From Pseudomonadota bacterium (GTDB taxonomy: Bacteria > Pseudomonadota > Gammaproteobacteria > Steroidobacterales > Steroidobacteraceae), in NCBI GenBank assembly GCA_021838635.1, contig JAKCDC010000013.1, forward strand, positions 1 to 64,000: a stretch of DNA of 64,000 nucleotides, written 5' to 3'. A model generated the notes under the pieces. That model made no database searches, was not told the DNA's origin, and was given only the letters and a program-made list of their open reading frames with translations. How positions within the stretch are numbered: the first letter of the stretch is position 1; each line of letters opens with the position of its first letter. The translations under genes and the position numbers were made by a program. Positions 10,615 to 10,795 of this stretch are shown in pieces.

Positions 10615-10642
10615 AAAAAAAACCGCCAGGGGACTGGCGGTT
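10615..10642 (-). terminator. Intrinsic terminator acting as attenuator before DAHP synthase
   Basis: On the minus strand CCGCCAG and CTGGCGG (10634-10640 and 10623-10629) form a 7-bp GC stem with a TCCC loop, flanked by two extra A-T pairs and followed by eight T residues (10615-10622). It lies 28 bases beyond the leader-peptide stop and 30 bases before the DAHP synthase ATG, so it sits inside the transcript. A leader segment GTTGGCGGG (10689-10697) duplicates the terminator 3' arm and can pair with the 5' arm instead, giving an antiterminator. Confidence 0.88.
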
Positions 10643-10670
10643 CTTTGGGGTGTTTCTCGTCTCGACTAGA

Positions 10671-10760
10671 TCATGAATCCGACAACAGCCCGCCAACCGC
10701 CTGCGAATGCGGCCAATAAAATCGATAATACGCAGAGCGGAGGGTGTGAGACTTGGGCAC
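10671..10760 (-). CDS. Aromatic amino-acid leader peptide of the DAHP synthase attenuator
   Basis: A 29-residue ORF starting GTG: M-P-K-S-H-T-L-R-S-A, then Y-Y-R-F-Y-W at residues 11-16 (codons 10713-10730), then P-H-S-Q-A-V-G-G-L-L-S-D-S and TGA. Five aromatic residues in six codons is the hallmark of ribosome-stalling leaders such as those of trp and pheA operons. A TTGCCG-17-TATTTC promoter ends seven bases before the GTG, so the message is probably leaderless. Stalling at these codons would leave GTTGGCGGG free to form the antiterminator; no stalling lets the terminator form. Confidence 0.82.
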   Translation of the reverse strand: MPKSHTLRSAYYRFYWPHSQAVGGLLSDS

Positions 10761-10766
10761 GTGGTA

Positions 10767-10795
10767 GAAATACCATGGCGCGCGCGACTCGGCAA
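10767..10795 (-). promoter_or_regulatory. Promoter of the DAHP synthase leader
   Basis: On the minus strand: -35 TTGCCG (10790-10795), a 17-base spacer, and -10 TATTTC (10767-10772) preceded by TGG, an extended -10. Transcription would begin at or next to the leader GTG at 10760. Confidence 0.6.

Follow-up and report, generated by a model that had tools for sequence, protein, structure and literature searches.

The DNA analysed here is a 64-kb stretch (the window) that forms part of contig C18 in a host genome of 3.47 Mb. Its minus strand encodes a type I-alpha DAHP synthase that matches TIGR00034 with 518.6 bits (cut-off 173.2) as well as PF00793, and all of the solved chains matched by the product are DAHP synthases. 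A letter-by-letter check of the DNA before this gene finds, in order, the pair TTGCCG-17-TATTTC, a GTG ORF, a hairpin with eight T, a GGAG and the ATG of the DAHP synthase (Table 1). The upstream neighbour, a plus-strand gene for nicotinate phosphoribosyltransferase, is transcribed away from the DAHP synthase gene, so the hairpin at 10642-10621 is ruled out as a terminator of that gene.

An earlier note on this DNA had described a promoter-like pair, a 29-codon GTG ORF with the run Y-Y-R-F-Y-W and a 7-bp hairpin followed by eight T. The letters bear out the pair, in which the -10 box can be extended (TGGTATTTC), and the ORF, for which the coordinates are correct. The hairpin and the eight T are also present, but the stem has 9 bp and a 4-nt loop rather than 7 bp.

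Table 1. Features before and including the DAHP synthase gene of the window; segments 1 to 4 are the pairing segments of the leader RNA.
Feature	Position	Strand	Remark
-35-like box TTGCCG	10790..10795	-	TTG 16-18 nt upstream of the -10 box in 32/37 gamma loci
Extended -10 box TGGTATTTC	10767..10775	-	TGnTAnnnn 6-10 nt before a leader start codon in 37/37 gamma loci
TATTTC core of the -10 box	10772-10767	-	17 nt from TTGCCG; 6 nt from GTG
Leader ORF VPKSHTLRSAYYRFYWPHSQAVGGLLSDS, 29 codons, GTG 10760-10758 to TGA 10673-10671	10671..10760	-	no Shine-Dalgarno core
Segment 1 CCGCTCTGCG	10731..10740	-	adjoins the sensor codons on the 5' side; may pair with segment 2
Sensor codons TAT TAT CGA TTT TAT TGG (Y Y R F Y W)	10713..10730	-	aromatic run and terminator in 83/110 loci
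Segment 2 CGCAGGCGGTT	10695..10705	-	contains GGCGGTT (10701-10695), able to capture the terminator 5' arm
GTTGGCGGG	10689..10697	-	second possible partner of the terminator 5' arm
Intrinsic terminator hairpin AACCGCCAG-TCCC-CTGGCGGTT (segments 3 and 4)	10621..10642	-	9 bp, 4-nt loop; from sequence and fold
Eight-T run after the hairpin	10615..10622	-	first two T also paired
GGAG before DAHP synthase	10594-10591	-	upstream of ATG 10584
Type I-alpha (AroG/AroF/AroH) DAHP synthase, 364 aa	9490..10584	-	TIGR00034, PF00793, solved chains

Aromatic runs of this density are rare in the window: at least five F/Y/W in six codons occur in 3 of 116,047 stop-free six-codon windows (six frames, 64 kb), at two places. 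The second place is in the frame of a membrane protein, which we take from its resemblance to be a cytochrome b. Three relatives (L005-L007) have an ATG at the place aligned with the GTG of the leader. The -10 region (10775-10761) reads W-Y-F-Y-H in the leader frame, and a start further upstream that takes in this W-Y-F-Y was considered. It is rejected because an in-frame stop lies between the -10 box and the start codon in 10 of the 37 gamma loci, the close relative L004 among them.

The same arrangement was sought in the 500 nt upstream of DAHP synthase genes with a two-part detector. It asks for a short ORF (45 codons or fewer, with four or more F/Y/W in eight codons) and, 10-90 nt after the end of this ORF, for a hairpin followed by five or more T. 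Of 200 family genomes 77 match, and the best 30 of these were taken; with the best 80 of at least 590 stretches from named genomes they make up the 110 loci. L001 was left out as a duplicate of L002, and the other 47 family genomes (weaker matches, at most 69% identity, two partial ones apart) lie outside this upstream comparison. The detector is positive at 83 of the 110 loci, in 0 of 1100 dinucleotide shuffles and on 0 of the 110 reverse strands. This comparison is the strong test of the set, and it supports the attenuator reading of the earlier note, as do all 30 family loci read (L002-L031), each with aromatic codons and a terminator. Relatives without these codons and terminator, which that note had held to speak against its reading, are absent among the close relatives (0/30) and occur further out, among the 27 negative loci.

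Positive loci come from Xanthomonas, Dyella, Rhodanobacter, Massilia, Rugamonas, Burkholderia, Caballeronia, Cupriavidus, Bradyrhizobium, Devosia, Mesorhizobium, Methylosinus and Leisingera, among others. The negatives include Pantoea, Erwinia, Serratia, Pectobacterium, Entomohabitans, Thauera, Azoarcus, Dechloromonas, Rhodocyclus, Ferrovum, Undibacterium, Polynucleobacter and Chitinilyticum. One negative (L098) has only 49 nt of upstream DNA, and three (L066, L088 and L094) have an aromatic ORF with no qualifying terminator. From these comparisons, the device recurs in front of the DAHP synthase gene in many of the related bacteria examined, but not in all.

A wider sample covers 397 genomes of the phylum, 219 of which have an I-alpha gene at E ≤ 1e-80. 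Forty upstream regions of about 620 nt were hand-picked to spread over the families listed, which are those with the stronger matches (G409 is represented by its weaker gene). The detector is positive for 14 of the 40 regions and in 11 of 30 families, with mixed results within three of the 11. A leader precedes the gene in 13 of 24 genomes with a single I-alpha match and in 1 of 16 with two or three (Fisher p 0.002). The genomes are related and hand-picked, and the apparent preference for genomes with a single I-alpha gene is a trend only.

Within the genus, the type II DAHP synthase serves as a control. It is found in 28 of the 31 genomes of at least 90% completeness and is thus nearly constant, and the attenuated I-alpha enzyme is patchy; two genomes (G160 and G169) have neither enzyme at the thresholds used. 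In the 600 nt before the matched domain of the type II genes (L114, L157-L183), leader and terminator were found in 0 of 28. We also trained a covariance model of the element on 15 relatives and ran it against 41 genus genomes, with stricter filters that may lose weak matches. It matches 12 of them, once each, and 12 of the 12 matches lie directly before an I-alpha DAHP synthase gene; G190, G596 and G604 are matched though outside the training set. The gene search in the family had found the I-alpha gene in ten of the 41 genomes, all of which are matched, and had found no such gene (E ≤ 1e-60) in twelve, none of which is matched. Since the matches track the presence and absence of the gene, the element goes with the I-alpha gene.

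The leader fold that the earlier note had proposed recovers the hairpin, and the whole leader has a z-score of -2.0, with 4 of 200 shuffles as good. The leader without its terminator (10730-10650) is not more stable than shuffles (z +1.22). That note had also pointed to a leader segment, GTTGGCGGG, as able to capture the 5' arm of the terminator and so to give mutually exclusive structures. This segment can do so, as can GGCGGTT, and the minimum-energy fold of 10713-10628 uses GTTGGCGGG (z -0.60). Segment 2, which contains GGCGGTT in the window and reads CTGGCGG in many other loci, is complementary to the 5' arm. The resulting 2:3 duplex reaches p ≤ 0.05 against shuffles of the region in 59 of the 83 loci (27/37 gamma, 27/31 beta and other, 5/15 alpha).

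The relatives support the mutually exclusive 2:3 and 3:4 pairings. In an alignment of 15 relatives, 95.2% of the cells of the 2:3 helix are paired (16-59% in slid controls), and one pair is changed on both sides, from U-A to C-G, in three relatives. For the terminator (3:4) the value is 99.3%; for the 1:2 helix it is 79.3%, with three pairs changed on both sides (slid controls for 1:2 with 3:4, 35-55%). The covariation score is matched by 5 of 500 shuffles for 2:3 and by 12 of 500 for 1:2 with 3:4. Counted by pairs with changes on both sides, 299 of 500 shuffles equal the 2:3 helix and 55 of 500 equal 1:2 with 3:4. Most alignment columns do not vary, the helix cores hardly at all, and we therefore read the covariation as support rather than proof. 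The 1:2 duplex is fair in the clade of the window and weak over all loci, with p ≤ 0.05 in just 14 of the 83, so it is not established as a general feature. Ten leaders (L056, L059, L062, L064, L065, L068, L070, L073, L076 and L078) start with MSAKFYFYFF, and L077 has one codon changed. Their MSAK codons (ATG TCC GCC AAG) contain TCCGCCA, which is complementary to TGGCGGA of segment 2, and the codons for the start of the peptide may double as segment 1.

We simulated a waiting ribosome by placing its A site on each codon of the run, folding the free downstream RNA to the end of the 5' arm and recording the pairing of that arm with anything upstream; RNA behind the ribosome is assumed to be unable to reach the arm. 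Median capture of the 5' arm over the 83 loci is 0.68 at aromatic codons, 0.06 at the stop codon and 0.48 without a ribosome. Capture is higher at aromatic codons than at the stop in 82 of the 83 loci, and higher than without a ribosome in 75 (for the clade of the window, 12 of 15); in the other 8 of 83 it is not above the free value. In the window, capture is 0.68, 0.68, 0.69, 0.70, 0.70 and 0.69 at the six codons, 0.01 at the stop and 0.58 without a ribosome. The closest relative, L003, has a free capture of 0.67, above the 0.64 at its first two codons. Since the 5' arm of the window is captured even without a ribosome, the anti-antiterminator is weak, and termination may need a ribosome over segment 2. 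In this model, the switch seems to depend on the position of the ribosome more than on the 1:2 helix, and each codon of the run would do.

At the gathering score, no Rfam family was matched in the whole window, Phe_leader (RF01859), T-box and riboswitch families included. A search of 12 loci at E ≤ 1 gives two matches, both below the gathering score. One is to Phe_leader at L045:1823-1955 (39.9 bits, gathering score 55), in the DAHP synthase leader of a proteobacterial MAG; the other, to mir-8521, is taken as chance.

The placement of the promoter bears on how the leader would be translated. The gamma set comprises 37 loci with the element (L002-L032, L042, L047, L049, L053, L058 and L060); named loci were grouped by their organism names, and the 30 family loci are counted as gamma by inferred kinship. 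The TGnTAnnnn pattern, picked after viewing the sequences like its alpha counterpart below, ends at the distance given in Table 1 from a leader start in every gamma locus (217 of 7400 shuffles), and in 18 of the 37, the window included, the distance is exactly 6 nt. A Shine-Dalgarno core precedes the leader start in 0 of the 37 and the DAHP synthase genes in 73 of the 83 loci. In the alpha loci, a -35-like box [T/C]GAC[A/T] begins 34-36 nt before a leader ATG in 15 of 15 (82 of 3000 shuffles), and their leaders also have no Shine-Dalgarno core. Among the beta and other leaders, such a start-abutting -35 box is found in 1 of 31, and it is rejected as a feature of this group; a Shine-Dalgarno core is likewise found in 1 of 31. 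Because these leaders have neither core nor start-abutting promoter, a missing Shine-Dalgarno core alone is no proof of a leaderless start. Promoter placement taken together with the absent core suggests that the leader is likely translated without a 5' leader in the gamma and alpha lineages, in support of the earlier note, which had thought a leaderless start probable. For the window, the predicted transcription start is the first base of the GTG. Three other loci (L036, L040 and L050) have a TATAGT-like box about 25 nt before the leader ATG, which suggests a short 5' UTR in front of these leaders.

By sequence, the host has two DAHP synthases, the attenuated I-alpha enzyme and a type II enzyme. 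No aromatic leader was found upstream of the type II gene, of pheA or of a second PF00793 gene (L113), which we take from its resemblance to be kdsA. The trpE region (L115, on contig C100) has a Trp-only leader of its own, MLQLHPTNLRWWWRTLHPEWAAGC, and a strong terminator-like hairpin with a T run (-22.8 kcal/mol). TGATAGGCT lies 7 nt before the ATG of this leader, which may be leaderless too. The genome also encodes, in an open frame of 379 codons (L196, contig C1), a match above cut-off to the Trp repressor family (PF01371, 80.5 bits); the TyrR domain is found only in part, at 21.4 bits against a cut-off of 30. As the host thus has a type II DAHP synthase free of such a leader peptide and a TrpR-family match, the attenuator may not be the only control and may have others beside it.

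We conclude with high confidence that transcription of the I-alpha DAHP synthase gene is attenuated in a ribosome-mediated way, through a leader peptide that is probably leaderless. The anatomy, the conservation, the competing pairings and the placement of the promoter come directly from computation, and they include the marks of this class: a short ORF rich in end-product codons, an intrinsic terminator before the structural gene and an antiterminator pairing that excludes it (weaker in alpha, 5/15). From these we infer where transcription starts, that the leader is translated, that the terminator works in vivo and how each amino acid acts, as follows. Transcription would start at the leader start codon or a few bases from it, and a ribosome would load onto the 5' end of the RNA while it is being made and trail the polymerase. 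When one of the tRNAs for Tyr, Phe and Trp is poorly charged, the ribosome would wait at YYRFYW; segment 2, downstream of a ribosome waiting at any codon of the run, would pair with the 5' arm of the terminator, and with the terminator blocked the DAHP synthase gene would be transcribed. When all three are plentiful, the ribosome would cross segment 2 and reach the stop codon; the terminator would then form and end the transcript after about 145 nt. One switch would thereby sense all three products, a reading suggested by the 63 of 83 leaders that hold F, W and Y in the run.

The same attenuator may instead answer just one or two amino acids (Tyr or Phe, for example), with the other aromatic codons as passengers. 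We consider this a genuine possibility, though the less probable one. Trp is missing from the run in 18 of the 83 leaders (the runs hold F+W+Y in 63, F+Y in 18, W+Y in 1 and F+W in 1), and the separate Trp-only leader before trpE could be counted on the same side. So could Corynebacterium glutamicum, in which, according to a review, the leader AroR (Phe-Tyr-Phe) acts on Phe limitation and Tyr availability has no effect (PMC11802643). Against passenger codons stand the joint occurrence of F, W and Y in most leaders and the computed geometry, which lets every codon of the run work.

Two further explanations dispense with the leader peptide. The hairpin could be a constitutive terminator or pause site and the ORF a chance occurrence, with control at the promoter, perhaps by a TrpR-family repressor. 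A simple consensus scan found no promoter and no terminator on the minus strand, which agrees with this explanation, as does the PF01371 match. We nevertheless regard it as very improbable, since codons, terminator and competing segment occur together before the I-alpha gene and not before the type II gene, and the gene upstream runs the other way. A repressor could still act alongside the attenuator. Direct binding of an amino acid or tRNA by a riboswitch or T-box would also involve a structured 5' leader with a terminator. It is scarcely credible here, given that no Rfam family reached its gathering score in the window and that the conserved part is an ORF with aromatic codons; neither device requires one.

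Leaders that sense several amino acids exist, as with ilvL of E. coli, and to our knowledge none of E. coli trpL, pheL and ilvL reads all three aromatic amino acids. The ribosome-mediated attenuator is like E. coli trpL and pheL in its use of leader peptide codons and of an antiterminator set against a terminator, and the target genes of those two differ (PMC11802643). Its closest precedent is aroR-aroF of C. glutamicum, in which a leader with aromatic codons (Phe-Tyr-Phe) precedes a DAHP synthase gene and stalling raises transcription (PMC11802643, PMC4046766); unlike the system described here, it is actinobacterial, has a run without Trp and is reported to respond to Phe and not to Tyr. The trpLE(G) system of Sinorhizobium meliloti is also a ribosome-mediated attenuator, and its trpL transcript is reported to start at the ATG (PMC7298713, PMC10117765). 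That leader is hence leaderless, as ours is predicted to be. It is a Trp leader and controls trpE(G).

RNA-level control of gammaproteobacterial DAHP synthases has been predicted before, as attenuators at the Vibrio DAHP synthase-tyrA operon (PMC1173090, Table 7) and as RNA motifs at Shewanella aroF/aroH (PMC2659441). These cases belong to other lineages, and a mixed F/Y/W leader is not seen in the available parts of either paper. A survey of regulons across the Proteobacteria reports attenuation for trp and pheA and control by TyrR and TrpR for DAHP synthases (PMC5343134); in E. coli, the first aromatic enzyme is under TyrR and TrpR and has three isozymes (PMC5343134). Apart from the cases cited, the literature searched shows no mixed aromatic leader before a proteobacterial DAHP synthase, and earlier comparative work may already predict one. 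No such leader appears in the parts available to us of PMC2965389 (where neither 'aromatic' nor 'deoxy' occurs in the main text), PMC4833913 and PMC1262725.

An aromatic leader before a DAHP synthase, a leaderless leader and a single leader for several amino acids are thus each known somewhere, and the combination and its spread look new. We tentatively propose, at somewhat less than even confidence, that the I-alpha DAHP synthase of many alpha-, beta- and gammaproteobacteria is preceded by an undescribed and anciently kept attenuator that acts as an OR gate, answering a shortage of Phe, Tyr or Trp, is leaderless in alpha and gamma, and is mostly absent where there are several I-alpha isozymes. 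If true, an RNA switch in cis would let the three end products together control a DAHP synthase, and this control would reach Xanthomonas, Dyella, Massilia, Caballeronia, Bradyrhizobium and Devosia. The start-abutting promoter would suit the study of leaderless translation that drives attenuation. Many genomes would also gain an annotated small ORF, and the switch may help in the design of strains for aromatic compounds.
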